A DNA stretch of 64,000 nucleotides, taken from positions 1 through 64,000 of the forward strand of contig JALUUL010000014.1 in assembly GCA_027021385.1 (NCBI GenBank), read 5' to 3'. The notes under the pieces were generated by a model, which was not told the DNA's origin, ran no database searches, and was given only the letters and a program-made list of their open reading frames with translations. Within the stretch, counting starts at the first letter, position 1, and the number at the start of each line of letters is the position of its first letter. This document shows positions 2,177 to 50,211 of this stretch, one piece after another. The DNA comes from Planctomycetota bacterium (GTDB lineage: Bacteria; Planctomycetota; UBA1135; GCA-002748355). The position numbers were made by a program, and so were the translations under genes.

Positions 2177-4234
2177 TCAGGCGAGGAGGCTTCGGGCGGC
2201 GGCGCGGATCCGGTCGTCGAAGCAGGGGAGGATCTCCGCCCGGGCGAGGCGGGTCGAGAGTTCGTCGGGGCGGAGGGCCGCCAGGACGGCATGCTCCCGT
2301 TCGTCGGGGGGCAGGAGGCGGAACCAGGGGCCGAAACCGAGGAGCCTGGAAAGGGCGGGGATCAGGTCCCGGGCGTGGATGCGGAGACGGTCGGGCTGGC
2401 TCAGGACCGAAGGCCAGTCCTGATGGCCCCTCCGTAGAAGCAGCCCGAAGGAGACGCCCTGGCCCGGGCGTGGCCGAACGGCCTCCCCGGCCGAGCGGTG
2501 CAGGAGAAAGCCGCGCAAGGTCCCGAGACCATGGAGGAAGATCGTATCGTCCTCCCCCTCGATCCTGTGGACGGCGGCGGGATTGAGCCCCATCCAGGCG
2601 AGGAGGTCCTGGGCCAGGGCGAGAGGCACCGGAGGGGCCGGGCGTGCCTTGAATCGACTCATTCCCCCTCCGCCATGCGCGCCTCCGGCGAGAAGCCGGC
2701 CGTCCCCGGAACGCTTCAGGAAACGGGCCTTCCCGCCGAGAAGGACGGCCTCGGGCTCCCCCCTCGTTTCCGGTCCGTCCAGGACCCCGGGGGACACGGT
2801 CCCGAGCCTCCTTCCGGTCAGCTCCTCGAGCACCTCGACCTCGGCCTCCCCCGAGAGGTTCGAGTGCAGGTTTCCTCTCCGGAAACGCTCCTCGAGTTCC
2901 TCGGTCGCGAGGTAGTGACCGGGGGCCAGCCGCCGGAACCACCTCCCTGCATGGGCGAGGGCCTCCTCGAGGCGGACCTCGGTCCAGTAGGACCGCTGCC
3001 AGGAGGGGAGGCGCTCGAGGAGATGGGCCGGAGAGATCGCCTTCGCGGGATTCTGGAACAGGAGGCTCGCGGCCTGCTGGAGAGCGGTCCCCGGATCGTA
3101 GACCGGCGGATCGGTCAGGAGCCTCTTCGAGGAGGCCGCCTTCTTCAGGTGGCGGAAGCGCAACCGCTCTCCCGGCGAGCGGGCGAGCGCCAGGAACTCG
3201 ACGCCCCCCTTCCGCCGTCCCGCGCGACCGACGCGCTGCAGGAGACTGGGGACATCGGGGGGCACCCCGAAGAGCACGACCCGGTCGACATGGCCGATGT
3301 CGAGGCCCAGTTCGAGGGTCGAGGTCGCGAAACAGACCGCGATCCTCGCATGATCGAAAGCCCGCTCGACCCGTTCCCTCTCCTCCCGGGAAAGGCTTCC
3401 GTGGTGCGCGAAGGCGGCCGTCCCGAAGGGGGGCCTCCCCTTGCACCGTTCCACGGCCCATTCGACCTCGGCCCTGGCGTTGCAGAAGACGAGGACCTTG
3501 GAGGCGCCGTGTTCCAGGAGGGAAGAGAGGAGGGGACCGGGGTCCCGTCCGAAGGGACAGTCCGCGATCCTCGCGCGCATCGGCCGGCGCATGGGGTCCT
3601 CGAGCACCCGGGCGGAACCCGCATAGCGCGCGGCCATCTCCTCGGGCCGGTCGACGGTCGCCCCCAGCATCAGGATCTGGGGTTCTACGCCCCGGGTCGC
3701 CGCGACCCGGCGCAGTCTCTCGCAGAGGACGGCGCATTGATCGCCTCGGGGACGGCCGTCGAGGGCGTGGAGTTCATCGAGAACGACGGCCCTGACCGGA
3801 AGCAGTCGTTTCGCCGCCCGGCTCAGGAGCGAATCCAGGGATTCTGGGGTCGTGATCAGGCACTGCGGCATCTCCCGGCCCGGGTCGGGATGGTCCGCCG
3901 TCTTGCGCCCGAGACTCAGGCCAAGACGGGCGAAGGGTTCCCGCAGGCGCCGGTGGAGGTCGTTGACGAGGGCCCGGGTCGGGACGAGATAGAGGATCGC
4001 AGGTCCTTCGACGAAGCGCCCGTCCTCGTCGAGGATGCGCTGCAGCAGGGGGGCCAGGACGGCCTCGGTCTTGCCGCCAGCGGTGGGCGCGATGAGCAGC
4101 ACGTGTTCACCGGCGAGGATCGGCGCGACCGCCAGGGCCTGGATCGGAAGGAGCCGCGGAAAGCGGGCGTAGAAGGCCTCGAAGGTCCGCGGGAGGCGGG
4201 CGCGCAGATCCGCGTGTTCCTCGGCCGGATTCAC
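2177..4234 (-). CDS. Lhr/BrxHI-like DExH-box helicase
   Basis: Motif I APTAGGKTEA, motif II VVLDELHAL, motif VI LLQRVGRAGRR; 685 aa. ATG overlaps the stop of the upstream ATPase gene by 4 nt (ATGA). Confidence 0.85.
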   Translation of the reverse strand: MNPAEEHADLRARLPRTFEAFYARFPRLLPIQALAVAPILAGEHVLLIAPTAGGKTEAVLAPLLQRILDEDGRFVEGPAILYLVPTRALVNDLHRRLREPFARLGLSLGRKTADHPDPGREMPQCLITTPESLDSLLSRAAKRLLPVRAVVLDELHALDGRPRGDQCAVLCERLRRVAATRGVEPQILMLGATVDRPEEMAARYAGSARVLEDPMRRPMRARIADCPFGRDPGPLLSSLLEHGASKVLVFCNARAEVEWAVERCKGRPPFGTAAFAHHGSLSREERERVERAFDHARIAVCFATSTLELGLDIGHVDRVVLFGVPPDVPSLLQRVGRAGRRKGGVEFLALARSPGERLRFRHLKKAASSKRLLTDPPVYDPGTALQQAASLLFQNPAKAISPAHLLERLPSWQRSYWTEVRLEEALAHAGRWFRRLAPGHYLATEELEERFRRGNLHSNLSGEAEVEVLEELTGRRLGTVSPGVLDGPETRGEPEAVLLGGKARFLKRSGDGRLLAGGAHGGGGMSRFKARPAPPVPLALAQDLLAWMGLNPAAVHRIEGEDDTIFLHGLGTLRGFLLHRSAGEAVRPRPGQGVSFGLLLRRGHQDWPSVLSQPDRLRIHARDLIPALSRLLGFGPWFRLLPPDEREHAVLAALRPDELSTRLARAEILPCFDDRIRAAARSLLA

Positions 4235-5679
4235 GGTCCGAAATCGACCGCGCTGTGGCGGCAGTGGTCGAGGAAATCGAGGACGCGGCGCGCGAAGCCG
4301 CGCGGACCGGCCGGAACTCCACGGCGGAGCCAGCGCTCGGCGCGCTCGTCGAGGGCCCGCAGGGCCGTGGGCTCCATCCCCGGAAACGCGCGCTTGTAGA
4401 GGGTCCGGAGCCGTCCGGCCAACTGGAGATACTCGCGCGGGCCGAAACTCCGCAGCTCGTGGACACGCTCCGCTCCCAGGACCGTCCGGAGAAAGCTCTC
4501 GCTCTCCGAGCCCGGGGTCGCCGCTAGCACGATGGCCAAGCGGGATTCCCTACCGAAGCGGGGGGGCAGGCGCCTGATGACCCCTCGTCCGCCTTCCCCG
4601 ATCCCGGAAAGGTCCAGGGCGGCCTCCCCCTCGGAGGGGAGGGAGGCGGCGAGCAGGACGCGGAAGACCTCGGTGGCCTTCGCCCGCTCCTCGGAGGCGA
4701 GACCTCCGAAGAGTTCGGTCTCGTCGAGGAGCACGCAGAGGCCTTCGTAGCCGCGGAGCCGGGCCAGATGTCCGAGCCCGGAAAGCAGGTACCCGTAGAC
4801 CCGGGCCAGGGTCCGGAAATCCGAGAGGGCGAGGACCCGGGCGCGGACATCGAGCATCCGGTGGAGATCGCGCTGCAGCTCCTGGTTGATCCCGGTCGCG
4901 CGCCCCTCGATCCAGTCCAGGAGACGGCTCTGGAGATCCGCCGGACGGGCGTCCTCGGGATGTTCCCGGAGGGCTTCGGCCAGGGCTTCCGCATAGCGGC
5001 GGGCCGGTTCGAGAAAGGCGTGCGCCTCTCCCCGGAAGTCGCGGAGAGGGTCGTCCCCGCCCCGCCCCGCCTCCCCGGAGAGGAGGGGCCAGAGCCCTTG
5101 TTCTCCGGCCTCGATCCTGTCCGGATAGACGAGGGATCGGGCAAGGGCGGCGTAGACCCGGCGGGGACGGTTCGGCGGGGCCTCCTGCGGATCCAGCCAG
5201 GCCCGCGCGACGATCCATCCCTCGTCCAGGGCCCAACGCTGGCAGAGTTCGAGCATGTGCGTCTTGCCCGAACCGTAGTCCCCGAGCAGGGCGAGGGCCC
5301 GGCCTCGCTCCCCGCCGCTCAGCAGCATGCGGAAGGCCGCGATCTCGTTCTCCCTCCCGACCGTGTAGGCCTCCAGCCCTTTCGAGGGCACGACGCCCAG
5401 CCGCAGGGCCTCGAGGATCTGCCGGTCGGGCTGGAACCGGGAATCCTCCTCTCCGCTCCGGGTCCGTCCCGTGGTCCTCCCGCGGCGCCCCCCCCCAAGG
5501 GTCCCCTCTTCATCCTCCACGAGCCGGAGAAGGTTCGCCGGAAGCCCCACGTCGAGACCGGGGAATCGATCGAAACGCACCCGGAGCACGAGCCCGCCCC
5601 GTTCCCGGGCGACGATGCTGCCCATGCCGTAGGTCGGATGCCGCACGCGGCGGGGACCCATCCCCTCCCCGCCGCTCAT
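4231..5679 (-). CDS. BrxD-like (DUF2791-type) P-loop ATPase
   Basis: Internal ATG giving MSGGEGMGPRRVRHPTYGMGSIV...; Walker A LLGDYGSGKTHMLELCQRWA, Walker B LCVLLDETELF; N-terminal 'GMGSIVARERGGLVLRVRFDR' segment; immediately upstream of the helicase. Confidence 0.75.
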   Translation of the reverse strand: MSGGEGMGPRRVRHPTYGMGSIVARERGGLVLRVRFDRFPGLDVGLPANLLRLVEDEEGTLGGGRRGRTTGRTRSGEEDSRFQPDRQILEALRLGVVPSKGLEAYTVGRENEIAAFRMLLSGGERGRALALLGDYGSGKTHMLELCQRWALDEGWIVARAWLDPQEAPPNRPRRVYAALARSLVYPDRIEAGEQGLWPLLSGEAGRGGDDPLRDFRGEAHAFLEPARRYAEALAEALREHPEDARPADLQSRLLDWIEGRATGINQELQRDLHRMLDVRARVLALSDFRTLARVYGYLLSGLGHLARLRGYEGLCVLLDETELFGGLASEERAKATEVFRVLLAASLPSEGEAALDLSGIGEGGRGVIRRLPPRFGRESRLAIVLAATPGSESESFLRTVLGAERVHELRSFGPREYLQLAGRLRTLYKRAFPGMEPTALRALDERAERWLRRGVPAGPRGFARRVLDFLDHCRHSAVDFGP

Positions 5680-5732
5680 CCCTCTCCTCCGGTCCCGGTG
5701 GAACGGAAACCCCCGGATCGTTTCCGCACGGA

Positions 5733-7148
5733 TCAGAACTCCTCGTCCAGGTCCACGTCCTCGAGGTTCAGACCCTCTCCGAGACGGAGAGGAGAGGCGT
5801 CCTCCCCATCTCCGCTCTCCGCGGGGTCCTCCCCGTCGCCCCCCCCTTCCTCCTCCGTGTCCACGTCCCGGAAGACCGGCGGCTCGGGGGCGGAAAGCAG
5901 GGAAGCCGTCGTGCCCGAGAGTTCCCGCAGGACCTCCTCGCCGAGAATCCGCTCGCCGTCCGCGACCTGCCCGTAGCAGAGATCGACCCAGGCCTTGACG
6001 AACAACCGGCGGTGGCTGACCTCGTAGTGGTGCCTCGTGACGATCGCCGCGAGGCGGGATGCGTTCTCCTTCTGCACCCGGGGATCGAGTTCCACCCCGC
6101 GCGCCGACTCGAAGACCTTCAGGATCCGGCCGGCGATCTCCTCGAGCAATTCCTTCGGGGGAAGGTCGAGATGCTCGAGATCGAGGACCGGGGACTGCGG
6201 GCTCCGTTCCGAGACGGGACTGACCGCGCTCAACCTCTGGTGCAAGGCGGGATAATCGGGAACGACGTTGCGCAGGAACTCCGGAGGCACCGCGTAGAGC
6301 ACCATGACCGAAGGAAAGCGCGCCTGCCCGCAGAGATCGATGATCTGACGCAGGTTGTCCATCAGCCGCTGGCTGCGGCTCGCCGTCAGGCTCATGACCC
6401 GATCGCCTTCGTCGAAGAGGATGACCGTGCCACGCAGCCCCAGGCGCGGGATGAGCTGCGTCATGGAACGCAGCATCGGAAAGGCGTTGCCCTCGTGGAT
6501 CCGGCTGTAGATCCCGAGCGCGCGGTGCTCGGAGCGGGGGACGTCCAGCCCGAGGAGCCAGGCCCCGAGGAGGTGGCGCGCCTCCTCGTCCCCGTCGGCG
6601 ACCGCTCTCATGTAGCGGTAGACCGCCTCCCGGAAGGCGGCGTCGGCGGCGGGGAGACGCCGCACCTCCTCCCGGAGCCAAAGCCGGGTTGCCTCCTCCC
6701 CCTGTGCCTCGATCCGGGCGAGGCAGAGATCTTCGAGAAGCGAGGGGAGTCCCTCGCGGGGAAGTCCATCCTCGTCCTCGGGGGGCGGAGCGAGCAATCG
6801 CGCGACTTCCCGATAGACGCTGAGACTCTTGTCGAAGGGGCATTCCCTGGCGGACAGCACGACGTCGGCGACCGCGTACCCCCTCTTCCAGGCTCGTTCG
6901 CGCACGCAGTACAGGAAGTGGGTCTTCCCGGCGCCGAAACCCGCCTGGACGATCCGGAAGGTCGCCCCCCCCGCGGGCAGCAGCCCCTCGAGATACTCCC
7001 GATCGAGGATGCGCAGGTAGGTTTCGTTGCCGACGTTGATCGCATCGAGATGACGATCCGGCGGCTTGCCGCTGGAACCGAGACTCTCGAGGATGCGCAT
7101 CGCCGCGGGCCGGCCGAGCTCGGCCCCCGTACCCTTCCCCCCACTCAT
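5733..7148 (-). CDS. BrxC/BrxD-like (BREX-type ATP-binding domain) P-loop ATPase
   Basis: MSGGKGTGAELGRPAAMRILESLGSSGKPPDRHLDAINVGNETYLRILDREYL...; Walker A QAGFGAGKTHFLYCVRERA, Walker B GTVILFDEGDRVMSL; 471 aa; ATGA overlap with the upstream gene. Confidence 0.75.
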   Translation of the reverse strand: MSGGKGTGAELGRPAAMRILESLGSSGKPPDRHLDAINVGNETYLRILDREYLEGLLPAGGATFRIVQAGFGAGKTHFLYCVRERAWKRGYAVADVVLSARECPFDKSLSVYREVARLLAPPPEDEDGLPREGLPSLLEDLCLARIEAQGEEATRLWLREEVRRLPAADAAFREAVYRYMRAVADGDEEARHLLGAWLLGLDVPRSEHRALGIYSRIHEGNAFPMLRSMTQLIPRLGLRGTVILFDEGDRVMSLTASRSQRLMDNLRQIIDLCGQARFPSVMVLYAVPPEFLRNVVPDYPALHQRLSAVSPVSERSPQSPVLDLEHLDLPPKELLEEIAGRILKVFESARGVELDPRVQKENASRLAAIVTRHHYEVSHRRLFVKAWVDLCYGQVADGERILGEEVLRELSGTTASLLSAPEPPVFRDVDTEEEGGGDGEDPAESGDGEDASPLRLGEGLNLEDVDLDEEF

Positions 7149-7996
7149 ACTTCCCCCTCCCGGACGAACCTGAGGCTCAGGTAGTACTGGCCCCCGCCCA
7201 TCCCCGCGCGCAGGAAGAGCACCCTCTTCCTGTCCCGGGCACTCCCTCCGGTCGCGGTCCCGAGTTCGAGTCTCCATCCCTCGAACGCGAGCCTCCCCTC
7301 CATCGCGAGGCGATCCAGCCAATACGCGAAGCGGGCGCGGTCGAGCGCCCCGCTCTCCCAGCCCTTCGGCCAGGCGCCCAGGAGACGCAGGGAGAGTTCG
7401 AGCTCCGCGGGCAGGTCGCCGAGTTCGACCCTTCCCGAGGGGTCCCCGCCCCGCCTTCCGAGGGCCGCCCCCCAGGAGGCGCGCAGCGCCCGGAACAAGG
7501 TCTCCGCGCCCGGCCAACCCCGCGCGAGGAAGGCGTTCGCTTCTCCGACGGCGCCGGGGAGACTCCGCGGCCGCAAGGGGACGCGGGCGACCTTCTCGCG
7601 ACCGTAGGCGATCTCCGCGACCCCCTTCTCGAACTCGAGCGTGAGGCTCAGGATCCCCGCCTCGAAGACCGGAGGGCGCTCCCCGGACTTCCGCAGTTCG
7701 ATCCCCGTCTCCAGGAAGGCCTCGTGGAGTTCGTCGAGGAGGGCCCTGCGCCATCCGGGCTCCAGGTCGCGGACCGAGGCGCGTGCCTCTTCCGCGAAGG
7801 CGAGGAGCTTCTCTGCTCCCTCGCCTCCACAGGCCTCGATGGCCTTCCAGGCCTTCCTCCGGATCCCCGGATCCTTCCAGGCCTCCGAATCCCCGAGAGC
7901 CTCGAGCGCCTTGCCCGCCCTCTCCAGGGCCTTTCCGAGGCGTCCGGCCTCATCCGCCAGCCGCCGCGCCTCGTTCGCCAGTTCCTCGGGTTCCAA
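7145..7996 (-). CDS. Hypothetical protein, first gene of the ATPase/helicase operon
   Basis: TTG start at 7996 with AAAGGA at 8003-8008 (6-nt spacing); the ORF track extends to a TTG at 8056. N-terminal helical ELANEARRLADEAGRLGKALERAGKALEAL, C-terminal ...FLRAGMGGGQYYLSLRFVREGEV. No family recognised. Confidence 0.7.
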   Translation of the reverse strand: MEPEELANEARRLADEAGRLGKALERAGKALEALGDSEAWKDPGIRRKAWKAIEACGGEGAEKLLAFAEEARASVRDLEPGWRRALLDELHEAFLETGIELRKSGERPPVFEAGILSLTLEFEKGVAEIAYGREKVARVPLRPRSLPGAVGEANAFLARGWPGAETLFRALRASWGAALGRRGGDPSGRVELGDLPAELELSLRLLGAWPKGWESGALDRARFAYWLDRLAMEGRLAFEGWRLELGTATGGSARDRKRVLFLRAGMGGGQYYLSLRFVREGEV

Positions 7997-22423: not shown

Positions 22424-25400
22424 CTACTTGGTTCTCCGGAGCTCGACGCCCTTCTGCTTGTTCTTCAAGAGCTGTTCGAGGCGGGAGTTCTGCTTGTCCT
22501 CGAGCCTTTTCAACTGCAGCGAGTTCTTCTCCAGGGCATCGAAGCCCCGGTCGCCCTTCCGCAAGGACTTCCGGTCCTTGTAGATCCGCTCCTTCTTGCG
22601 GTGAACGGGGGTTCCGAATGAGGCCTTGCTCCGGTAGAAGGCATAACTCCCGCCCGCCTCGACGAGCACGGTCGCGCGACCCGAGAGTCCGTCGCAGACG
22701 TAGATCCCCCGCAGGTCGGTGACCCCCGATCGGATCTCCCGATCCCGATCGCCGACGACCTTGACCCTGGCCTTCGGAAGGAAGCGTCCTCCCTTGCGGA
22801 CGTTGACCCGCAGCCGGTTCTCTTCCGGCATCTCCTGCGCCTCGATCGAAAGATCGGTCCTCAGGAGAAGCCCCGAACTCTTGAGTTCCCCCGAACTCGC
22901 GAGAACGAGGTAGCTCCCCTCCGCGGAAAGGGGGAGATCGAACTCCCGCTCGTGGTCTTTGAAATCCTCTCCCTCGGCCAGCCGGAAGGTCTTCTTCCAC
23001 GTCGGCGAGATCCCGAAGAGCTGGACGTGCCCCATGTCGGACAGCGACTTCCTCAGGAGATAGAGGCGCATCAGGTCCACCTTGTAGACCGTCAGCGCGA
23101 TCGAGGCGAGGTTGCGCCAGCGCAGCCTGACCTTCGCCCCTTCCCCCGGGGCGCAGAGCGTGACCTCCGGAACTTCGAGGCGCTTCCGCTTGAAGAACCC
23201 TGCGGCTTCCCGCGCGTCCAGGAAGCGGTCCTCGACCTTCCCGTAGGCCTCGAGCGCTTCCTTCGGGCGGCCCGCGGCGTGATGGATCTGCCCCTGGAGG
23301 AAGACCGCGAGCCATCGATTCTCGCTCGGCCCCCGTCCTCCGCCCTTCGTCGGGAACTCCTCGCTCCCGACCCGGGCCAGGATCTTCAGAGCTTCGTCGA
23401 AGGCCCCCTTCTTGAAGAGGGCGTAGCCGTAGAGGTAGAGGAAGTCGTCGAGCCAGGGGGAGGAGGCGTAGGTCTTCGAAGCCCTCCGCAGGATGTCGAG
23501 GGCCTCGTCGTAACGGTCCTCCTCGAGCGCGATCGAGGCGAGGCTGTAGGCAACCTCGTCGGCCTCCGCGTCCTCGGGGTAGCGGACGAGGAACTCGTAA
23601 CAGAGATCCCGGGCCGTCCGACGCAGGAGAGTGGGAGCGCCGACCTTCGGGTCGAGGGCCCGGAGGGGATCGAGCGTGCGGGCCCGGCTGTTCAGGGACT
23701 GCGCCAGCGAGAACATCGCGCCCCGGATCTCCGGCAGCCCGGGGAAGTTCATGAAGAGATCCCGGAAGAAGCGCAGGGCCTCGAGGACCTCGCCCCTGGC
23801 CTGGAGCTTGCCCGCGATCTGCACCTCCCTGAGGAACGAGGCCTCGCATATGGCCTGCGACACGTGGAGGGCGCGTTCGAACTCGCCGTTCCGGTAGTAG
23901 GCATCCGCGACCTTCGCCATGTCCTCGAAGCCGAGGACCCAGTCCGGGTCGCGGTCCTTCAGGGCCTCGAAGAGCCGGATCGTCCATTCGTGATCCCCTC
24001 GAAGGAGGGAGATCTCGAGGAGCCGGCGCGCGATCTCCTTGAACGGACCCTCCTTCAGGCTGGGTCCGAAGTCCCGGAACAGGGTCTCCAGCGGCGCGGC
24101 GACGCGGTCCCGCGTCGCGGGATCGCGCTCGAGGGCCCTCCGGCCCGCGGCCGCATACAGCATGAGGCCCGAATGGTAGAGTTCGTCCGGGGTGGGCCTG
24201 CGCGCCGTCTCGACCTTCGATCCGGGAGGCAGGATCGTGATCTTCGCGGGCTTCCCCCGAAGACTCAGCCCCAGATCGTCGAGGGAGAAGATGCGCGTCG
24301 GAAGGACCTTCCAGACCCCGGGCATCGCGGCCCGGAGACGATAGCGGATCCTCACGTTTCCCACGGAACGGTGCACGTAGAAACGGAGGAAGCCCGGCCC
24401 GACTTCGAAATGGTCATGGTTCCCCTGGATCTCCGACCCGAGGACCATCGAACCCGCGGGCAGAGGTTCCTCGAGGATGAACGAACCCAGCCTCGCGCGT
24501 TCCTCGCTTCCGGGATCGAACTCGAGCTCGACGTCCAGGAATCCCCCGACGACGAGGCGGTCGCTCTCGTTCTTCCAGGTCTTCACTCCCTTGTCCACGA
24601 CCCGGAATCCCTGCGGCACCGGCCTCCCGTCGAGCAGGAGCGGCGCCTGGAGATAGCGGCGCTTCAGGTTCGGGGAATCCCCTCCTTCCGGAAGCCCCTT
24701 CGTGAGGCCTCGGAGGACGGCGGTCCAGGAGACCTTGCCCCGTCCCGAACTGCGCAGGACGAGGCGGACCCGGCCCCGTGCGAGCGCGGAGGATGGAAGG
24801 CGGAATCGCCGGCCGCGGGGTTCCTTGCGGAAGTCGACTTCCCTCCGGAATGCCCCGTCGTCCGCCAGGATCACGACGCGCTCGGCGGTCGCCCCGGCCG
24901 CGACCCGGCGCTTCGCGAGGAACGACACGGCGAGAGCGTGAACGATGCGGCTCCCGAAGCCCCGGGGCCGGCGGTTCTCGAAGAGCCAGGTCTCGACCCT
25001 CTTGCAGAGCGCTTCGTGCCCGCGACCCTCCGCGAGAGCCAGGGCGGCCCACAGGACCGACGCCTTCCTCGAGGAAGGGGGCAGAGGCCGGATCTTCCGG
25101 TCTTCGCGGTCCGGTTCGGCCCCTCCGATGCGGGCCTCGAGCTTCGCGGCGAGGCCCGGCTCGAGTTCGGAGGCCAGCCCCGGCCGGCCCATCGCGCGAG
25201 CGGCGAGGGCGAGCCTCCCGAGAGCGCCCAGGGAAAGCGTCGTCCGGCGCCGGGCGAGGGAGTTGTAGCGGCCGAAGTCGGCCAGCCCCGCCTCGGCCTC
25301 GACGAGGAAGGCGAGCGTTGCCAGATCGGAATCCCGGCTGCGGACGAGTCCCGCGAGCCGTTTCCGGAAACGGTCCAGGAGCCCGGGATCGACCGGGATC

Positions 25401-28400
25401 CCCGCCTTCGAGGCGCGCACGGCAAGGAGCCAGGACAGGAGTCCCGCCTTGGTGTCTCCGAGGGACCCGTGCCCCTTTCCGATCCAGGGCATGCGCCCCT
25501 CGGATTCCCCGCTCATGAGAGAGGCGAGGAGGGCCTCGACCCTCGCCCGCAACCTGTGGATCCGTCCCTGATCCGACGGGCGCGTCGCCGCGTAGTGGAG
25601 GTAGAGTTCGAGGACCCCCAGCCCCTCGGCGGCGAGGTTCGTCGCGGTCGGGGGCACCCAGTCGATGCAGTTGTAGGTCAACTGGTTCGGACGGCGAATG
25701 GCCCCCGAGGAGAGGACCTCCTCGAGGGAAAGCGGGGCCACCGTCACGATGCACTCGAGACCGTTCCATTCCCGTCCCTTCGGTAGCGCGAGTTCGACGC
25801 TCCGCTCCCCGCTGAGGAGTCCCGCCGCCCCGCGTCGCTCCTCGATCCCCCAGGGCTGGATCTCGACCCTGCGTTGCAGGCTCGCGCGCGTTCCGCTTCC
25901 CGCCCGGGCGAGGGCGGAGACCCTCGTGAATCCGGGAGTCTCCGCATCGAGAGAGAAGAAGCGACGGAGCACGCCCCCGGCGGGGACCTCGATCCCTTCC
26001 TTCACCCTCTCCTTCCCGCCTTCCCGGACCTCGAGAGTCCCGTCGAAGGGACGCCCCGCGGCCGCGTGCAGCTCGATCCGACCCTCGGCCCGATCCCCTT
26101 GAGTCCACACGGGCGGGAGGGCCGCGCGAAGGACGAGATCGTCCCGCGTCCGGACCTCGGCGCGGGCCTCCCCGAAGAGTTCCTCGCCGCCGAGCCCGAT
26201 CACGTGGAGTTCCCAGGCTCCAGCGTGCGCGGGCAGGGAGATCTCGACCTCCGCCTTTCCGTCCTCCCCGGCCCTCACGATCCCCCGGAAGACCGAGAGA
26301 TCCCCGGGGAGGGGGCCGTTCCCGCCTCGACCGTCCCGCCCTCGAGAACCGGTCACGGTCCTCACGGGTGGGAGGTCGGCCCCATCCTCGTCCACGAAGA
26401 GGAAGGCGTTCAGCAAGCCGTTCATCGAGCGCGAGTCCAGGGCCAGGGTCTGTCTCTCAATCTGCGCATCCATTCCGTAGGGGAACAGGATTTCGGCTTC
26501 TTCCGCAGCCGCTTGCTGCGCGCGTTCCCCTCCTACCGACCTCCTTCTCGCGACCCGCCCTCCGAAACGACCTCCGAAGGCCCCGCCGGCCCCTCCCCCG
26601 AGCCCGATCGCGTCGTTCATGGCCGACGGTGAAGCGGCCGGAGCCTTCGCGGGGCCCCTATAGGCCCCTCCCCCCTTGGGCACTCCCGTGGGTCTCGAGG
26701 CCCGCTTTGCGGCGAAGAGTCCGCGTTCGCCCCGCTCTCCCTTCCAAACCTTGCGGAGCTTCTCCTCGAGTTTCTTGCGGACCTCCTCCTCCCGGAGATT
26801 CCGATCGACCTTCCTCGTCTTCGCCTCGTAGCGGAAGGTGTTCGAGGAAGCCGTCCTCATGTTCGTGCTCCGCCGGATCCCCTCGCCGTAGAAGACCTCG
26901 TAGATTCCCGGCCCTTTCCGGCCCCGCAACTGCAGGAGGGCCTTGTCGACGATGCTCAACGAGAACTCCGCGGCGACCGGCCGACCGAGGGGATCCCGGG
27001 CCCGCAAATCCACCACGAGCTTCTCCCCGGTCTTCAGGGTCTCGGCTCGCGGCTTCACTTCGACTTGCAGCGGAACGCGGACCCGGAAATCCCTCCGCGC
27101 GGCATGCATCCGCGAACCCGCGAGGAGGGTCGCCGCGTAGGCGAAGTTCGGCGCGTGCAGGGTCTTCAACGGAAGGCGGATCCTCGTCTCTCCGACAGGG
27201 ATCCGTCGGGTCTCGAACTCGAGCACCCCGTCCCCCTCGATCGTCAGGAGCACGAGCCCTTCCCGGACCCGGTTGACCAAGCGGATCCCGAGCTCGTCCC
27301 CGACCTTCGCGTGCTGCACGCGGCTCAGGAGCCGCAGCTTGACCTTGTCCTCCTTCCCGGAGACGAAAAGATCGGCGCTCGTTTCGATGACCTGCCCGAA
27401 CCGATCCTTCCCGAAGACCCGGACCCGGTAATCGCCTCCTTCCTTGAGATCGAACGAGGCGTACCCGCGGCCGTCCGCGGCGCGGGTCTTCAGGTTCGTA
27501 CGTCCCGCGGGGATTTCGACGACCGTTCCATTCCTCTTCCGGAGCCGGTGGAGTTCGGCCTCCAATTCGCGGACCAGCGGTTCGCCGTCGTGCGATTCCG
27601 CGACGACCTCGACCTCGAGGTCCTCTCCGACGAGGTACACCTTCGCCGGCAGGGAGGAACGCAGCCGGAAGCCCGTCCTCTCGATCCGGAAGACCTCCTG
27701 CACGCCCGCGCGCTCCTCCGGAATCGTCGCGACGACGGTCAGGGAAGCGCCGTCCAGGGCCTCCCCCGTCTCGAAACGGAACGGGAACTCCCCGGCCCGG
27801 TCCGTCCGACCCTCGAGGATGCGGGGACGCCCCGCGATCGTCGTCCGGACCTCGATGCGGCGGTCCACGACCGGCCCCCCGAAGAAGTAACGGGCCCGGA
27901 TCTTCCCCTCGATCGGTTCGCCGCGGACGAGGGTGGTCCGCGGGGACCGGACCTCCATCGAAACCCTCGGGGCCTGGAATCGGTCCACCTCGACCGTCCG
28001 GGTCGCGAGGATCCGGCCGGTCTCGGAATCCAGGACCCGCAACGTGAAGGACCCCGCGGCCGCTTCCGCGGGGATTCGGAACTCCGCGGTCAAGCTTCCG
28101 AAGGGGCTCGGCTTTCGTTCCCTCCTGGAGATAAGGCGGCCGAAGGCGTCCAGGAACTCGAAGGCGTAGGTCCGATCCGCAGGAAGGACGTAGCGTCCCT
28201 CCTTCACGTCACGAAGGACCGCCTTGGCGGACAGGGAGTCGCCGGGCCTGTACAGGGGCCGATCGGAAAAGAGATGCGCCTTCGCGGCCAGACCCCTGCC
28301 CTCTCGAAGTCCATTCAGGTCCAGGGTCGTCGCGCCGTTTCCCTCCGGTCCGATCGCGAAGACGTGCAGCCTAGGGGCCTCGCGCACGACCTTTCCCCTG

Positions 28401-30391
28401 AGCCTCCAGACCCCACGCTCGTCGGTCGTCCCCTCGGCCAGGATCTTCCGGCCGTCCGTGACGAGAAGCCGAACCCCGGGTTTCGGAAGGTCACGGGCGA
28501 GATCCTGGGTGAAGACGAAGAGTTCCTTGCGGGAGGCCTTCGTGACGACCGCGAGATCGGTGACGAGGACCAGGGTCGTCGCGGCGAGATCCTCCTCGTC
28601 GACCTTCACGAGATAGGCGCCGGCCCCCTCGGCCGGAATCGGAATCTCGACCTCCGTCTCCCGGAACGGCTCGTAGTCGCGGACCTCGAAATCGAAGGAG
28701 GAATCCGGGGAGATCGCCTCGATGGCAAGGGACTCGATCGAGCCCGATCCGAGGGTCCCCCGGAAGAACGACTCGTAATCGAGTTTGTAGAGCCGAACAC
28801 GGAGCTTGGGGATATTGCGGCTCCTGAGCTTCAAGAAGGGTTTCTCCCCGCGGCGGAACGAACGCTCGGTCCGAAGCGCGAGGGATTTCCTCCGGAGTTC
28901 CTCGAGACGGCGGCGGGCCTTGGCCGCGAAAGGCCCCTTGACCTTCCGGTAGGCCTCGACGGCGGCCGGATAGTCGAAGAGCTTCCCCTCGAGGAGGCGG
29001 CCGATGCGGTAGGCCGCCTCGGAGGCCTCGGCCGTCCCCTCATGCTTGCTCGCGCAGCGTTCGTAGTCCCGGCGGGCGTCCTCGTATCGCTCGACTTCCT
29101 CCCGCATGATCCCGAGCCGGAGCAGGATCCTCGGCGCGCGGGCGTCGAGAGGATGCCGCTCGAGAAAGGCGAGAAAGAGCTTCCGCGCGGATTCGTAGGA
29201 GTCCTTTCCTTTCGCGGCGAGGCCTTCGGCCTTCCCAAGTTCGAGGTCGACGATCGCGCGCTGGGCTTCCTTCCAGCGGGGGTCGGCGGGGAAGCGGGCC
29301 AGATAGGTCTTCCAGGCGGCGATCGCCTCGTCGAAACGCTGCAGGCGACCGAGAACGGCCCCCCGTTCCGCGGCCGCCCGAGCCAGGACCTTCGGTCCAG
29401 CGGTGGGGAAGCGCTTCTGAAGATCCTCCAGGGTCGCCAGCGAGGCCTCGAGCAGGCCGAGTCTCTGCTGGACGCGCGCGAGCTGCCAGGCCGCCTCGGG
29501 AGCCTTCTCGTGCAATCCGAAGGTCTCGAGGAATTTCCGGAGCAGGTCCGCGGTTCTCGCGAGACCGGAGCTTCCCTGCTGGCACTGCGCGAGTTCGAAG
29601 AGGACCTCGGGACGGAGCGCGGCGGGAAGATCCTCGCGCAGCAGGTCCTCGCAGAGCCTCCGCGCGGAGGGGACGGCCGAGGTGCGCCGCCAGCAACGGG
29701 CGAGGAAGAGCCGGTCCTCGTGGGCCGGATCCTCCCCGCTCTTTCCGAAGATGCGCCCGCGGACCTCGTTCACGAGGGCCTCGAAACGCCGCCGAGCGTC
29801 CTGGAAGTTCCCGGCCTCGAACGCGAGCCGCGCGGCCCGGCGCAGGAGTTCGAACCGCTTCTTTCGGGGCAGTTCGAGGTCCACTGCGAGGTCGTGGAAG
29901 ACGATCGCCGTCCTCCGGTCTGGAGGGGTCCGGGCCAGAGCTTCCCGCGCGCGGGCCAGGTAGACCTCGGCGAGGGCAAGTCGCCTTTCGGGAGCCAGGA
30001 GCCTGGCAACCTCCTCTCGATAGACCGACGCGGCCTCCTGGAAGTTCCCGGAAGCGGCCTCGGCGCGGGCCCGTCCGAAACGGGCGAGTCGTCGATAGAC
30101 GCCGTCGGGGCTCTCCTTGCGGAGGGACTCGAAGGCCTCCGCCGCCTCCCGTGTCTTTCCGGCGAGGAAGAGGGTGTTCGCCCTCAAATAGAGGAGTCGC
30201 TCCCGGTCCCTGGCCTTGGCCGGATCCTTCCGGGCTTCCTCCAGGGCCCGGTCGAGGTGCCGGAGGGCTCGGGAGTAATCCCTTCCCAACAGGTCGAGGC
30301 GGGCTTGACGGCGGGCGTCCTGGCGGGCCCCCGCGAGGAGGGCGAGAGGCAACAGGAACAGGATGGACCAGCGGGAAGAACGGCGTTTCAT
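22424..30391 (-). CDS. Giant alpha-2-macroglobulin-like secreted protein with TPR segments
   Basis: ATG at 30391 (MKRRSSRWSILFLLPLALLAGA, signal peptide), about 2655 aa; N-terminal TPRs; MG/BRD domains (AHLFSDRPLYRPGDSLSAKAVLRD...; RSPRTTLVRGEPIEGKIRARYFFGGPVVDRRIEV); alpha/alpha toroid-like region after LTYNCIDW; C-terminal TPRs and second MG-like region. The longer 3433-aa frame upstream of 30391 is antisense to comM. Confidence 0.85.
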   Translation of the reverse strand: MKRRSSRWSILFLLPLALLAGARQDARRQARLDLLGRDYSRALRHLDRALEEARKDPAKARDRERLLYLRANTLFLAGKTREAAEAFESLRKESPDGVYRRLARFGRARAEAASGNFQEAASVYREEVARLLAPERRLALAEVYLARAREALARTPPDRRTAIVFHDLAVDLELPRKKRFELLRRAARLAFEAGNFQDARRRFEALVNEVRGRIFGKSGEDPAHEDRLFLARCWRRTSAVPSARRLCEDLLREDLPAALRPEVLFELAQCQQGSSGLARTADLLRKFLETFGLHEKAPEAAWQLARVQQRLGLLEASLATLEDLQKRFPTAGPKVLARAAAERGAVLGRLQRFDEAIAAWKTYLARFPADPRWKEAQRAIVDLELGKAEGLAAKGKDSYESARKLFLAFLERHPLDARAPRILLRLGIMREEVERYEDARRDYERCASKHEGTAEASEAAYRIGRLLEGKLFDYPAAVEAYRKVKGPFAAKARRRLEELRRKSLALRTERSFRRGEKPFLKLRSRNIPKLRVRLYKLDYESFFRGTLGSGSIESLAIEAISPDSSFDFEVRDYEPFRETEVEIPIPAEGAGAYLVKVDEEDLAATTLVLVTDLAVVTKASRKELFVFTQDLARDLPKPGVRLLVTDGRKILAEGTTDERGVWRLRGKVVREAPRLHVFAIGPEGNGATTLDLNGLREGRGLAAKAHLFSDRPLYRPGDSLSAKAVLRDVKEGRYVLPADRTYAFEFLDAFGRLISRRERKPSPFGSLTAEFRIPAEAAAGSFTLRVLDSETGRILATRTVEVDRFQAPRVSMEVRSPRTTLVRGEPIEGKIRARYFFGGPVVDRRIEVRTTIAGRPRILEGRTDRAGEFPFRFETGEALDGASLTVVATIPEERAGVQEVFRIERTGFRLRSSLPAKVYLVGEDLEVEVVAESHDGEPLVRELEAELHRLRKRNGTVVEIPAGRTNLKTRAADGRGYASFDLKEGGDYRVRVFGKDRFGQVIETSADLFVSGKEDKVKLRLLSRVQHAKVGDELGIRLVNRVREGLVLLTIEGDGVLEFETRRIPVGETRIRLPLKTLHAPNFAYAATLLAGSRMHAARRDFRVRVPLQVEVKPRAETLKTGEKLVVDLRARDPLGRPVAAEFSLSIVDKALLQLRGRKGPGIYEVFYGEGIRRSTNMRTASSNTFRYEAKTRKVDRNLREEEVRKKLEEKLRKVWKGERGERGLFAAKRASRPTGVPKGGGAYRGPAKAPAASPSAMNDAIGLGGGAGGAFGGRFGGRVARRRSVGGERAQQAAAEEAEILFPYGMDAQIERQTLALDSRSMNGLLNAFLFVDEDGADLPPVRTVTGSRGRDGRGGNGPLPGDLSVFRGIVRAGEDGKAEVEISLPAHAGAWELHVIGLGGEELFGEARAEVRTRDDLVLRAALPPVWTQGDRAEGRIELHAAAGRPFDGTLEVREGGKERVKEGIEVPAGGVLRRFFSLDAETPGFTRVSALARAGSGTRASLQRRVEIQPWGIEERRGAAGLLSGERSVELALPKGREWNGLECIVTVAPLSLEEVLSSGAIRRPNQLTYNCIDWVPPTATNLAAEGLGVLELYLHYAATRPSDQGRIHRLRARVEALLASLMSGESEGRMPWIGKGHGSLGDTKAGLLSWLLAVRASKAGIPVDPGLLDRFRKRLAGLVRSRDSDLATLAFLVEAEAGLADFGRYNSLARRRTTLSLGALGRLALAARAMGRPGLASELEPGLAAKLEARIGGAEPDREDRKIRPLPPSSRKASVLWAALALAEGRGHEALCKRVETWLFENRRPRGFGSRIVHALAVSFLAKRRVAAGATAERVVILADDGAFRREVDFRKEPRGRRFRLPSSALARGRVRLVLRSSGRGKVSWTAVLRGLTKGLPEGGDSPNLKRRYLQAPLLLDGRPVPQGFRVVDKGVKTWKNESDRLVVGGFLDVELEFDPGSEERARLGSFILEEPLPAGSMVLGSEIQGNHDHFEVGPGFLRFYVHRSVGNVRIRYRLRAAMPGVWKVLPTRIFSLDDLGLSLRGKPAKITILPPGSKVETARRPTPDELYHSGLMLYAAAGRRALERDPATRDRVAAPLETLFRDFGPSLKEGPFKEIARRLLEISLLRGDHEWTIRLFEALKDRDPDWVLGFEDMAKVADAYYRNGEFERALHVSQAICEASFLREVQIAGKLQARGEVLEALRFFRDLFMNFPGLPEIRGAMFSLAQSLNSRARTLDPLRALDPKVGAPTLLRRTARDLCYEFLVRYPEDAEADEVAYSLASIALEEDRYDEALDILRRASKTYASSPWLDDFLYLYGYALFKKGAFDEALKILARVGSEEFPTKGGGRGPSENRWLAVFLQGQIHHAAGRPKEALEAYGKVEDRFLDAREAAGFFKRKRLEVPEVTLCAPGEGAKVRLRWRNLASIALTVYKVDLMRLYLLRKSLSDMGHVQLFGISPTWKKTFRLAEGEDFKDHEREFDLPLSAEGSYLVLASSGELKSSGLLLRTDLSIEAQEMPEENRLRVNVRKGGRFLPKARVKVVGDRDREIRSGVTDLRGIYVCDGLSGRATVLVEAGGSYAFYRSKASFGTPVHRKKERIYKDRKSLRKGDRGFDALEKNSLQLKRLEDKQNSRLEQLLKNKQKGVELRRTK

Positions 30392-30675
30392 CGCGAAACC
30401 TCTGAAGAGGATCTGAGGGAGCGGGGCCCCGGGACGGACTCTACCCGGGCAGGGATCGAGCGAGGGCCTTCTTCCGCGGGGGAAAGGCTCGGGATCGGAG
30501 AGGGATCTCCAAAGCCTCCTCCCCGCCGATCCCTCTTCCCGACCGGAGCAGGGCTTCGACGGCGGCCGCTTCCGGAGGTTCCCGGGGAAGACCGGGAATC
30601 TCTCCGCCCTCCCTGAAACGAGCCTCGCCTCCTCCCGGTTCGGTCCGGCCCTCGCATCGGTCGATAGGGAACGGG

Positions 30676-31056
30676 ATGGAGCCGCGCGATCTCGACCTCC
30701 GGAACCTCGCGGGGAGGAGCCCCGCCGTCCTATGCCTGGCCCCCCCGGACCCTTCCTGGGAGCCCCTGGCCGCCCTCTGCCGTGAGGTCGGCCTCCGCGC
30801 GCACCTCGTCCATGGGACGGAGGAAGCCTTCTCCCGATTCTTCGAGGAAGGCGGTCACGAGGCCCTGCTCCTCCTCGGCCCAGGGGATCCCGAAACCGAC
30901 CGGGCCTTCTTCGCCTTGAAGGAGATCGATCCGGCCCTCCCGGTCCACCGCCTGGCCGAACTGCCCCGCCTGGGCTTCCTCCGCTCCCTGGCCCGGGAAC
31001 TCGGCGCGGGGGACGGCCCGTCCCGGCCCCCCGTCCCCCCCCTCGAAGAACGATGA
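30676..31056 (+). CDS. Small protein, possibly a degenerate receiver-like domain
   Basis: 126 aa; MEPRDLDLRNLAGRSPAVLCLAPPDPSWEPLAALCREVGLRAHLVHGTEEAFSRFFEEGGHEALLLLGPGDPETDRAFFALKEIDPALPV, an alternating beta/alpha pattern. Confidence 0.5.
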   Translation: MEPRDLDLRNLAGRSPAVLCLAPPDPSWEPLAALCREVGLRAHLVHGTEEAFSRFFEEGGHEALLLLGPGDPETDRAFFALKEIDPALPVHRLAELPRLGFLRSLARELGAGDGPSRPPVPPLEER

Positions 31057-31132
31057 CGGCCGACCTCCGGTCGCGGATCCCGACCCGCCGGGAACCGCGG
31101 CCGGATCCTCGCGGGTTCCAGGGAAGTTCGGG

Positions 31133-32767
31133 GTGCGCATCCCGGAAACGACCGGGAGGCGGAGCGTGGTCCCTTTCGTGGAAGGCCTGGATCCCGAAGA
31201 CCTGGGGACGACCCCGAGCCGCACGATCAAGGTCCAGGCGGCCGCGATGGAAGGCCTCCTCGCCCGGCCGGTCGTCCTCGAGGCCTCGCTCGACGCGGAC
31301 TGTTTCGGACCCCCGCGCATCCTGGGGCTGCCCGACGCGGCCGTGCGGGAGGCCTATTTTCGAGTCCTCGCGGCCTTTCGGGCCTTGAACCTCGCGTTCC
31401 CCCGCGGGCAGGTCGTCGTCAACCTCGCCCCCGCGAGGACCCGCAAGGAGGGATCGGGCTTCGACCTCGCTCTCGCCCTGGCCTGCGCCTGCCTTTCGGG
31501 CTACCTGCCCCCCGATGCGACGGACGGGCTGCTCCTTGCCGGAGAACTCGGCCTGGACGGAAGCCTCCGTCCGGTTCCCGGCATTCTGGGGCTTGCGCGC
31601 CTGGCGGCCTCCGAGGGCCTCGACGCCCTCCTGTGCCCGGAGGAGAACGCCGTTCTCGCGATCCGGGCCTCGGGCGGAGTCCGGGTCGTCCCGCTGCGGG
31701 ATCTGAGCGAGGCCCTGCGGGTCCTGCAGGAGGGTCTCGCCTCCGCCCGCGGGGTCTCCGCCCCGGCCTCTCCCCCGCCGCCGCCGGAAAGGCGCCCCCT
31801 CGCCCGGATCCGCGGCCAGGAGACCGCCCTCCTCGCCCTCCAGGTCGCGGCCGCGGGGGGCCACAACCTCCTGCTCTCCGGTCCCCCCGGCTGCGGGAAG
31901 ACCCTGCTCGCCTCGAGCCTCCCCGCCCTCCTCCCTCCGCTCGAGGAGGAACAGGCTCTCGAGGTCCTCGCCCTCCACACCCTCCGGCGCCCGACCCCGC
32001 CCCCCGAAGTCCTCGCCCTCCTCGAGGCGCGCCGCCCGCCGTTCCGCGCGCCCCACCACAGCATCAGCCAGGCGGGTCTGATCGGGGGCGGCAATCCCCC
32101 GAGCCCCGGCGAAGCCTCCCTGGCCCACCACGGAGTCCTCTTCCTGGACGAACTTCCGGAGTTCTCGCGCCAGGCCTTGGAGAGCCTTCGCCAGCCTCTC
32201 GAGAGTGAACGGATCCTCCTCCACCGGGCCGGAACGCACGCGGAGTTCCCGGCCTCCTTCCAACTCGTCGCCGCGATGAACCCATGCCCCTGCGGGCGCC
32301 TCGGACATCCGACGCTCCCCTGCCGGGACAGTCCCGCCCGGATCCACCGGTATCGAAGCCGCATCTCCGGCCCCCTCCTCGACCGCATCGACCTCCAGCT
32401 CCCCTGCCGCCCGGTGGCGGCCGAGGTCCTTCTCGCCGAGGTTCCCGAGGACGGATTCGAATCGAGGCTCCGCGCGCGGGTCCTCGAGGCCCGGGCGCGA
32501 CAGGCCGCCCGGAACGGAGGAGTCCTGAACGCCCGTCTCGACGGGAACCTCCTGCGGTCCACGGCCCACCTGAGTCCCTCCGCGCGCCGCCTGCTTCTCG
32601 CAGTCTGCAAGGACGGCCGCCTCTCCGCGCGGGCGATCCACCGTCTCCTGAAGGTCGCGCGCAGTCTGGCCGACCTCGGGGAGGCAGCCCGGATCCGTGA
32701 GGAGGATCTCGCGACCGCCTTCCACCTCAGGCTCCGTCCGGCCGAGAACGACCCCCTACTCTCCTGA
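31133..32767 (+). CDS. comM: YifB/ComM-family Mg-chelatase-like AAA+ ATPase
   Basis: ILGLPDAAVREAYFRV, GGHNLLLSGPPGCGKTLLASSLPALLPPL, RPPFRAPHHSISQAGLIGGGNPPSPGEASLAHHGVLFLDELPEF, MNPCPCGRLGHP. An internal ATG at 31247 (MEGLLARPVVLEASLD) is a plausible alternative start. Confidence 0.92.
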   Translation: MRIPETTGRRSVVPFVEGLDPEDLGTTPSRTIKVQAAAMEGLLARPVVLEASLDADCFGPPRILGLPDAAVREAYFRVLAAFRALNLAFPRGQVVVNLAPARTRKEGSGFDLALALACACLSGYLPPDATDGLLLAGELGLDGSLRPVPGILGLARLAASEGLDALLCPEENAVLAIRASGGVRVVPLRDLSEALRVLQEGLASARGVSAPASPPPPPERRPLARIRGQETALLALQVAAAGGHNLLLSGPPGCGKTLLASSLPALLPPLEEEQALEVLALHTLRRPTPPPEVLALLEARRPPFRAPHHSISQAGLIGGGNPPSPGEASLAHHGVLFLDELPEFSRQALESLRQPLESERILLHRAGTHAEFPASFQLVAAMNPCPCGRLGHPTLPCRDSPARIHRYRSRISGPLLDRIDLQLPCRPVAAEVLLAEVPEDGFESRLRARVLEARARQAARNGGVLNARLDGNLLRSTAHLSPSARRLLLAVCKDGRLSARAIHRLLKVARSLADLGEAARIREEDLATAFHLRLRPAENDPLLS

Positions 32768-46195: not shown

Positions 46196-47230
46196 ATGAC
46201 CGAAGCCTCGAAACCATCCCCGAAGAACCTCCCCGGGAGGGCTTCCGGATCCTTTCTCCCGTTCCTGACGGGTTTTCTGCTGATCTTCAGCCTCGGGCTC
46301 CTGCTGAGCCGGAAGATCCTCCCGCTCCTCGAGGAACAGGAACGCCGGTTGGAGGTCGTCGAGGAGCGACTCGGCCGGATCGAGGAAGTGCTCTCCCTCC
46401 TTCGATTCGCGAAGGACCCGGAGAAGGAATCCCTGCCCCAGGTTCTCGCCGCCCTCGACTTCTGGGCCCGGGAACTCGAAGATAAGGGGAGCAGCCTCGT
46501 CGAGCGGAAAGTCCTCGAGGAAAGGATCGAAGCCTGCCGCAAGGCGGTACGGGCCCTCGGGAAAGCCGCTGTCCCGGAACTCGTCCGGATCTTCGAGACC
46601 CCGGGACCGGAACGGAGGCTCGAGTATCGGAGGAACCTGCTGCGCCTGATCGATGAGATCTCCCCTCGGGAGGGGGAAGAACTCGCGGCCCGCACCCTGA
46701 AGAACCCCGCAGCCCCCTCGAGTCTCCGCGTTCTCGCCGCAAGGCTCCTCAAACGGCGGGACGGGACGAGGGCGGGGTTGCTGCTGGCGAAGATCCTGGT
46801 CTCCGAATCCCGGAAAGGGGTCCGGCACCCGATGCCCGGGAGTCCCCCCCTCGAGAGGGCGGCCGCAAGCCGGGGGTTCCCGAACTTCTTCGACCTGATC
46901 TCGATCTTCATGGAGACCGACTACCCCCACAAGGGAGAAACCCTGCTGCTCCTCCTGGATCAGCCCGAACACGGGATCGCGACCTTGAACGAATGCTTGA
47001 AGGGCCTGATCTCCCTGAAGGAGAAGAAGGCTCTGCCCAGGCTGAAGGCGATCTTCCAAGGGAGGAGACCGGAGTTCCGCAACCCCTTGTTCCGGATGAA
47101 CGTCGCACGCGCGATCGCCGAGATCGCGGGAAAGGGGGCCTGCGCCTGGCTGGAGGCCCAGATCGTGCGGGAAGGGGATCCCACGGTCCTGACCCGCCTC
47201 CAGCAGCTCTTCTCCAGGACCTGCGGCTGA
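46196..47230 (+). CDS. Membrane-anchored HEAT-repeat-like protein
   Basis: ATG at 46196; TM segment FLPFLTGFLLIFSLGLLL, coiled coil EEQERRLEVVEERLGRIEEVLSLL, then helical repeats. Confidence 0.65.
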   Translation: MTEASKPSPKNLPGRASGSFLPFLTGFLLIFSLGLLLSRKILPLLEEQERRLEVVEERLGRIEEVLSLLRFAKDPEKESLPQVLAALDFWARELEDKGSSLVERKVLEERIEACRKAVRALGKAAVPELVRIFETPGPERRLEYRRNLLRLIDEISPREGEELAARTLKNPAAPSSLRVLAARLLKRRDGTRAGLLLAKILVSESRKGVRHPMPGSPPLERAAASRGFPNFFDLISIFMETDYPHKGETLLLLLDQPEHGIATLNECLKGLISLKEKKALPRLKAIFQGRRPEFRNPLFRMNVARAIAEIAGKGACAWLEAQIVREGDPTVLTRLQQLFSRTCG

Positions 47231-48060
47231 TGGGCGGCCCCCCCGCGGCGGTCCCCTCGCTCCCGGGCGCCGGGGACAGCCATTGCCATCTCGGATGGCC
47301 CGATCTCGCCAGGGATCTCGAGGGGGTCCTGCGGAGGGCCCGGGAGGCGGGGCTCGTCTTTCTCGTCGATGTCGGGATCGACCTTGAGAGCAGCCGCCGG
47401 GCCCTGGAGCGGGCCAGGGTCTTCGAGGGCCTCCATCCGACCGCCGGCCTCCATCCGAACGACTGCCTCCACTGGGAAGCGGAGTTCCCCGGTCTCGAGG
47501 CCCTGTGCGAGGAGGAGGAGTTCTGCGCGGTCGGGGAGACCGGACTCGACCTCTACCGCGAACGCATCCCCCTCGAGGTCCAGCGCACCTCCCTCGAGGC
47601 CCATCTCCGCCTGGCCGCGGACCGCGGCCGGCCGGTCATCCTCCATTGCAGGGACGCCTTCCGGCCGCTCTTCGAGACCCTGGAGGGTTTCGCCCCGATC
47701 CGGGGCGTGCTCCACTGCTTCACCGGCGGGCCGGAGGAAGCCGAGGCCTGCCTGGAACTCGGCCTCCACGTCTCCTTCGCCGGCCCCCTCGGCTATCCCC
47801 GGAACGAGGCCCTCAGGGAAGCCGCGGCCCTCGTTCCCGAAGATCGTCTCCTCGCCGAGACCGACGCCCCCTTCCTCCCTCCGCAGCCCTGGAGAGGCCG
47901 CCGCAACGAACCGGCCTACGTCACCGAGACGATCCGGGTGCTGGCCGGAGTCCGGAAACGCCCGCCCGAGCCCCTGGCCGCCCTCCTCAGGGCGAATGCG
48001 GCGCGCCTGTTCGGCTTCCCGGAACCATCTCCCGGGGAGGCTTTCGGCCGGAAACGCTGA
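47230..48060 (+). CDS. tatD: TatD-family metal-dependent hydrolase
   Basis: ATG at 47230 (TGATG overlap); DSHCHLGWPDL, GLHPNDCLHW, AVGETGLDLYRERIPLEVQRTSLEAHLRLA, VILHCRDAF, GVLHCFTGGPEEAEACLELGLHVSFAG, LLAETDAPFLPPQP. Confidence 0.93.
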   Translation: MGGPPAAVPSLPGAGDSHCHLGWPDLARDLEGVLRRAREAGLVFLVDVGIDLESSRRALERARVFEGLHPTAGLHPNDCLHWEAEFPGLEALCEEEEFCAVGETGLDLYRERIPLEVQRTSLEAHLRLAADRGRPVILHCRDAFRPLFETLEGFAPIRGVLHCFTGGPEEAEACLELGLHVSFAGPLGYPRNEALREAAALVPEDRLLAETDAPFLPPQPWRGRRNEPAYVTETIRVLAGVRKRPPEPLAALLRANAARLFGFPEPSPGEAFGRKR

Positions 48061-48064
48061 ACGG

Positions 48065-48080
48065 CCTTCCCGCAGGAAGG
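48065..48080. terminator. Candidate bidirectional terminator hairpin
   Basis: CCTTCC-CGCA-GGAAGG, perfect 6-bp stem with 4-nt loop, 5 nt after the tatD stop and between convergent genes; followed by CCGGG-T-CCCGG. Confidence 0.45.
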
Positions 48081-48112
48081 ACCGGGTCCCGGAAGGCTCC
48101 CGCTCCGGGGGA

Positions 48113-50149: not shown

Positions 50150-50211
50150 ATCCTCATCCTTCGGCCCCGACCCCTTTCGGTCTTCAGCCATGGCCCCGAT
50201 GGGACCGATGA

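Follow-up and report, generated by a model that had tools for sequence, protein, structure and literature searches.

A four-gene operon in a Planctomycetota genome, which encodes a small protein (U), two PF10923 ATPases (A and B), and an SF2 helicase, most likely represents, judging from its sequence relationships, a third branch, next to BREX type 2 and Shango, of the ATPase-helicase systems of BrxD/BrxHI type; both of these relatives are defense systems (PMC12839542, PMC10250203). The unit matches no named system in PADLOC 2023, NCBIfam 2026, Pfam, or open-access papers. No description of the four-gene set was found in the open-access papers searched. A preliminary description of this DNA had allowed that the cassette might map to a named system, and no such system accounts for it. 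New as well is a Tudor domain on ATPase B, a feature that has been described for neither the BREX nor the Shango ATPase.

The four-gene operon and its proteins

The window (the whole 64-kb stretch of DNA that was analyzed) is the start of contig C14 (179 kb), which belongs to a 3.7-Mb Planctomycetota MAG. All four ORFs were present on the minus strand at the coordinates at which they had been described:

7145..7996, minus strand: U (first gene), 283 aa; alternative start, TTG at 8056; no known family
5733..7148, minus strand: ATPase A, 471 aa; PF10923 BrxC/D-like P-loop ATPase
4231..5679, minus strand: ATPase B, 482 aa; divergent PF10923 paralogue
5530..5652, minus strand: Tudor domain of ATPase B (approximately residues 10 to 50); PcrA/UvrD type, SH3-like barrel
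2177..4234, minus strand: helicase, 685 aa; SF2 DExH, BrxHI/SngC/Lhr-like, GTG start

These are real genes, as is evident from the same set in the same order in many genomes and on plasmids from two further phyla. The genes for U and ATPase A overlap by ATGA, as had been reported, but the overlap between ATPase B and the helicase is GTGA because the helicase start codon is GTG, and the spacing between A and B measured 53 nt rather than 54 nt. The residues of the Walker and SF2 motifs in the ATPases and helicase were invariant across orthologues.

The Walker A and Walker B motifs of both ATPases are intact (GFGAGKTH and ILFDEGDR in A; GDYGSGKTH and LLDETE in B), and both proteins matched PF10923 above the Pfam cut-off (E = 4.4e-43 for A and 1.7e-24 for B), so that the similarity on which their earlier designation as BrxC/D-like depended is present in each. 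For both proteins the PADLOC model for BrxD ranked above that for SngB; scores with the NCBIfam BrxD model were 123 bits for A and 68 bits for B, compared with an equivalog cut-off of 350 bits. ATPase A was the best-conserved component of the unit, with 72% identity between the window and a genome of a second genus (G002), followed by the helicase (58%), ATPase B (55%), and U (42%), the fastest-evolving component. No relative of ATPase A was found in the PDB by sequence search. ATPase B comprises the N-terminal Tudor domain, a disordered linker, and an AAA+ core and lid; its AlphaFold model has four strands within residues 11 to 47, then a linker of low confidence and a core that resembles AAA+, and Foldseek matched it to AAA+ proteins in general, among them archaeal Orc1/Cdc6 and RdrA of RADAR, with modest TM-scores.

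The helicase matched DEAD and Helicase_C in Pfam. Its best PADLOC model was BrxHI (1.1e-74), then SngC (4.8e-53), and its closest PDB entry by sequence was 5v9x, a mycobacterial Lhr, which agrees with its initial description as an Lhr-like helicase related to BrxHI. Lhr helicases (PDB 5v9x and 7lhl) share the SF2 core and are the nearest solved structures by sequence, but the window's helicase is shorter and shares an operon with AAA+ ATPases.

The AlphaFold2 model of U (pLDDT, 92.7; pTM, 0.83) has a long N-terminal helical hairpin (residues 3 to 97), a beta-meander (101 to 140), and a C-terminal region (164 to 279) in which the order of elements, H-E-H-H-E-E, would fit a winged helix. The window protein had no match in Pfam or PADLOC, and no Pfam family was repeated among 21 orthologues. 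Structure searches returned no significant match in the PDB (best E, 0.05) or among the viral proteins of BFVD (best E, 0.004, with low TM). A hidden nuclease was considered and rejected: the E-x-K-like GEYK of many orthologues is QYY in the window's family, and this motif is thus not a conserved active site.

A Tudor domain on ATPase B

The preliminary description had recognized two divergent ATPases and an unrecognized small protein, and in both respects it stands, but it had missed the Tudor domain of B. The N terminus of Planctomycetota B proteins is longer by ∼50 residues, which bear the signature V-x-H-x-x-x-G-x-G. In single B orthologues Pfam gave a hint of PcrA_UvrD_tudor, and in a PF21196 search B was a weak further match after UvrD itself in four genomes. 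When the domain was compared by hhalign with 12 UvrD-type Tudor domains of the same phylum, the probability was 97.9 (E = 3.8e-13), versus a maximum of 3.35 in column-shuffled controls (n = 30). With this profile similarity and a small beta-barrel in the AlphaFold model (strands 11-14, 18-26, 31-36, and 43-47), the N-terminal domain of B is, on the sequence evidence, homologous to the Tudor domain of PcrA/UvrD.

The Tudor domain of PcrA binds RNA polymerase (PMC5397179, PMC8318588), and each of the residues H681, W684, K712, and L714 is required for this (PMC5397179). The equivalent His was kept in 16 of 16 B sequences, and an aromatic residue three positions on is common among them, as in PcrA/UvrD. 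The K/R-x-L pair is apparently kept in many Planctomycetota and seemingly lost in the window's own family. The domain is C-terminal in PcrA/UvrD, whereas here it is N-terminal on an AAA+ ATPase. It may tether B to RNA polymerase in Planctomycetota; the B proteins of two plasmids from other phyla (Aulosira and Desulfomonile; see below) are without it, judging in part from gene lengths.

Recurrence within the Planctomycetota

The A-B tandem was found in seven of the eight genomes of the window's own family, and in other families of the order, with further cases in a sample of the phylum. PF10923 matches in these relatives were ∼1e-26 to 1e-43 for A and ∼1e-14 to 1e-20 for B. Canonical BrxD and SngB proteins of the same phylum matched mostly at ∼1e-97 to 1e-174 and had no such partner, and they are therefore readily separated from the A/B kind. 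With profiles of the window proteins, the U-A-B-helicase order was seen again in most loci on long enough contigs, with insertions between B and the helicase in a few.

An independent search of 395 genomes of the phylum with the U profile matched 18, each with U adjoining A, and these were the same 18 that carried an A-type ATPase in that sample (log10 P = -30.8, or ∼10^-31, for chance overlap, with the kinship of the genomes ignored). U is thus a signature of the four-gene unit. The helicase was present in eight of eight genomes of the window's own family. In three genomes with fragmented assemblies (G001, G003, and G006) the contig with the helicase did not carry U-A-B, and in G006 the helicase was found and U-A-B was not. 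The surroundings of the helicase differ in these three genomes, so the operon is probably split, and the retention of both halves in at least G001 and G003 despite the probable split argues for a functional link. Coverage of other phyla was limited: a single scan of genome contigs with one protein gave six loci, all of the window's own family. Recurrence of the four genes elsewhere, which the preliminary description had proposed to survey, is borne out in many genomes and on plasmids.

Relationship to BREX and Shango

Shango consists of SngA (TerB-like), SngB (ATPase), and SngC (helicase) (PMC10250203). For comparison, Shango loci of the phylum were picked with the SngA model; BREX was represented by canonical BrxD loci, mostly SngA-negative on search, and by annotated BREX-2 plasmids, with the check for adjacent PglZ confined to some of them. 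The helicase tree resolved into three groups, each of single origin: the unit (22 rows; support, 100/100), BrxHI (14 rows; 99/96), and SngC (8 rows; 100/99). In an ATPase tree built with a quick method, A and B formed separate clades outside the BREX and Shango ATPases, except for two plasmid A proteins and the pair from genome G406, which are unstable long branches. Profile comparison indicated that all four ATPase groups (A, B, BrxD, and SngB) are related.

The unit shares with BREX type 2 the dyad in which a BrxHI-type SF2 helicase comes straight after a PF10923 ATPase, a similarity at the level of families only, and possibly a loading mechanism, as BrxD may load or activate BrxHI in the manner of an ORC/Cdc6-type ATPase (PMC12839542). 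The unit differs in having two distinct ATPases, U in front, and a Tudor domain on B, in the absence of BrxC, PglX, PglZ, and PglW from its operon, and in the separate clades of its ATPases and helicase. No PADLOC match to BrxC, PglX, or PglW (E ≤ 1e-15) was found among 33 window genes, a set that left out the largest ORF (22424-32725). PglZ was not found in the window either, and the genome has it only on another contig; SngA had no match anywhere in the genome. Contig C81 of this genome carries a BREX type 3 locus (L105:8662-14380) with a BrxHII-like helicase (1,384 bits), PglZ, and BrxA. Among 26 genomes checked, 25 carry A and B and 22 have no PglZ, so the unit does not require BREX.

Shango resembles the unit in being a small operon that combines a nonenzymatic first protein with a PF10923 ATPase plus a helicase (PMC10250203), whereas the unit has no SngA, an extra ATPase, and proteins in separate clades. 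The hhalign probability for U versus SngA was 0.33, within the range of shuffled profiles (maximum, 0.56), and on BREX and Shango loci the U profile matched only the U proteins of two plasmid operons. Membership in Shango was rejected on the absence of SngA, the lack of relationship between U and SngA, and the separate clades.

Plasmids, a probably transferred copy, and chromosomal surroundings

The four-gene unit occurs in at least three phyla. Plasmid pDESTI.01 (27 kb) of Desulfomonile tiedjei has a complete U-A-B-helicase operon beside AbiEi/AbiEii and also carries ParA and an integrase, with no PglZ annotated. In Aulosira laxa, a cyanobacterium, a conjugative plasmid has a complete operon directly after MTase-PglZ-BrxD-BrxHI; its PF10923 matches are distinct (BREX BrxD, 8e-130; A of the unit, 2e-48; B, 1e-22), and the BREX set and the four-gene unit therefore coexist. 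No relative of the unit was found in phage records and viral contigs.

In the complete genome G362, the copy (L058:6107-11062) has a GC content of 0.380 versus 0.464 in its flanks and a DUF3368 gene upstream; its composition suggests that it was probably acquired recently. Genome G406 has a divergent U-A-B set (C2, L059, 8315-11702) that adjoins a type I restriction-modification locus (HsdM and two HsdS-like genes) and is also flanked by an unknown 438-aa gene; a helicase of the unit's type was not found in that genome. A plasmid of Deinococcus psychrotolerans (NZ_CP034187.1, 38023-45437; L061) carries an operon of a different type, with a BrxD-like ATPase, a BrxHI-like helicase that branches next to BrxHI in the helicase tree, a leucine-rich-repeat-variant protein, and an unknown 451-aa protein. 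A partial repeat lies at 46857-51825, with the ATPase and helicase twice nearby.

In the window's own family the unit adjoins glucose-6-phosphate isomerase (GPI) and lies near RidA and CoaD homologues, and these neighbors are the same in the second genus (window versus G002). Across this comparison ATPase A (72% identity) was more conserved than the homologues of GPI (57%), RidA (65%), and CoaD (61%). Other genes of the window have housekeeping functions (PGI, EF-G, type II secretion, and others), and PADLOC gave two weakly telling matches among window genes outside the unit. The accessory location first proposed is not supported, given these neighbors and the synteny with a different genus, and the nearby IS256-like remnant cited in its favor was not recovered, there being no IS256-type transposase match (PF00872, E ≤ 0.01) on the window's contig. 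The flanks of 11 other Planctomycetota loci showed no clear defense island; the PADLOC matches listed there were each in one protein, and families such as the kinase-like PD-T4-6 need not be defense genes. Inspected by eye, neighbors in other families resembled hem genes and RNase III.

Two further features of the window were observed. Positions 1-2000 have a GC content of 0.54 versus ∼0.70 elsewhere and contain a 565-aa lipoprotein-like gene with no Pfam match. Positions 22424-32725 on the minus strand were called as one very long ORF by a simple composition gene caller.

Possible functions of the unit

We lean, with restrained confidence, toward the four genes acting as one functional unit in defense against incoming DNA, either phage or plasmid, because the two nearest relatives are defense systems and defense genes accompany the plasmid copies. 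ATPases A and B would form a hetero-oligomeric AAA+ ring of the ORC/Cdc6 kind, by which the helicase would be loaded or activated on DNA, a model consistent with the matches of the B model to AAA+ and ORC structures. U would serve as a fast-evolving adaptor that recognizes DNA or a partner, and in Planctomycetota B might hold the assembly, through its Tudor domain, to RNA polymerase or to a different partner of PcrA. The operon has no nuclease, methylase, or PglZ, and it is therefore proposed that the unit would disrupt transcription or replication of incoming DNA by means of the helicase or hand the DNA to host nucleases. The plasmids with AbiE and BREX neighbors, the probable transfer in G362, and the type I restriction-modification neighbor in G406 all favor defense, and the PglZ-free genomes show that BREX is not required. 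Counting against it are the core-gene surroundings, the helicase in all eight family genomes, the lack of a clear defense island at the 11 loci, the greater conservation of A than of the GPI, RidA, and CoaD homologues, which is unlike an arms-race gene, the lack of an identified effector enzyme, and the location of the helicase on another contig in three genomes.

Much the same observations make housekeeping genome maintenance a serious rival, since the unit behaves as a vertically inherited, core-like element in the window's own family, even if we consider this explanation less likely than defense. In such a role Tudor-tethered A/B would recruit the helicase to transcription complexes and clear R-loops or stalled forks in a PcrA/UvrD-like manner, and plasmid copies would serve plasmid maintenance. 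Vertical retention of the helicase and of A and B, the conserved synteny, the conservation of ATPase A at the level of core enzymes, the RNA polymerase-binding type of the Tudor domain (PMC5397179, PMC8318588), the hem-like and RNase III-like neighbors, and the keeping of U-A-B and helicase even on separate contigs all fit this role. However, distribution beyond the family is patchy (18 of 395 genomes of the phylum), plasmids carry the unit beside BREX or AbiE, one copy was probably transferred recently, and the Aulosira and Desulfomonile B proteins have no Tudor domain. The choice posed in the preliminary description, between a novel defense system and a BREX-derived housekeeping module, thus receives a mixed answer, with the plasmid and defense-island cases favoring the former and vertical retention the latter. 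The position of the Aulosira operon against BREX genes and the BREX type 3 locus elsewhere in the window's genome might instead point to an add-on that gives BREX a second ATPase-helicase set, but this is improbable given the many carriers free of PglZ, the Desulfomonile plasmid with none annotated, and the lack of BREX genes beside the Planctomycetota copies examined. Least probable is a degenerate BREX type 2 or Shango remnant that has lost its effectors: the PF10923 ATPase and BrxHI-like helicase families are held in common, but the helicase clade is separate, neither A nor B groups with BrxD or SngB, and U is no closer to SngA than shuffled profiles are. A BREX remnant was rejected on the trees and on the absence of PglZ from most carriers, and a unit with intact motifs that is conserved across phyla is not decaying.

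For the defense reading, our most specific proposal is a tentative one, less likely than not to hold: an undescribed third BrxD/BrxHI lineage. A pair of different ORC-like ATPases would work with a new adaptor to drive an Lhr-like helicase, and in Planctomycetota the Tudor domain would anchor the system to RNA polymerase, for transcription-coupled recognition of foreign DNA without a methylase, PglZ, or dedicated nuclease.

The role of BrxD/BrxHI in BREX and the mechanism of Shango are not established, and a minimal unit of this kind would isolate the ATPase-helicase function. With a duplicated ATPase, a Tudor tether, and no modification or nuclease genes, it would make the helicase-loading idea directly testable, and the Tudor domain is a testable hint that such machines may work at transcription complexes. 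If the housekeeping explanation is true, the unit would instead offer a hint at the origin of the motor pair of BREX and Shango.
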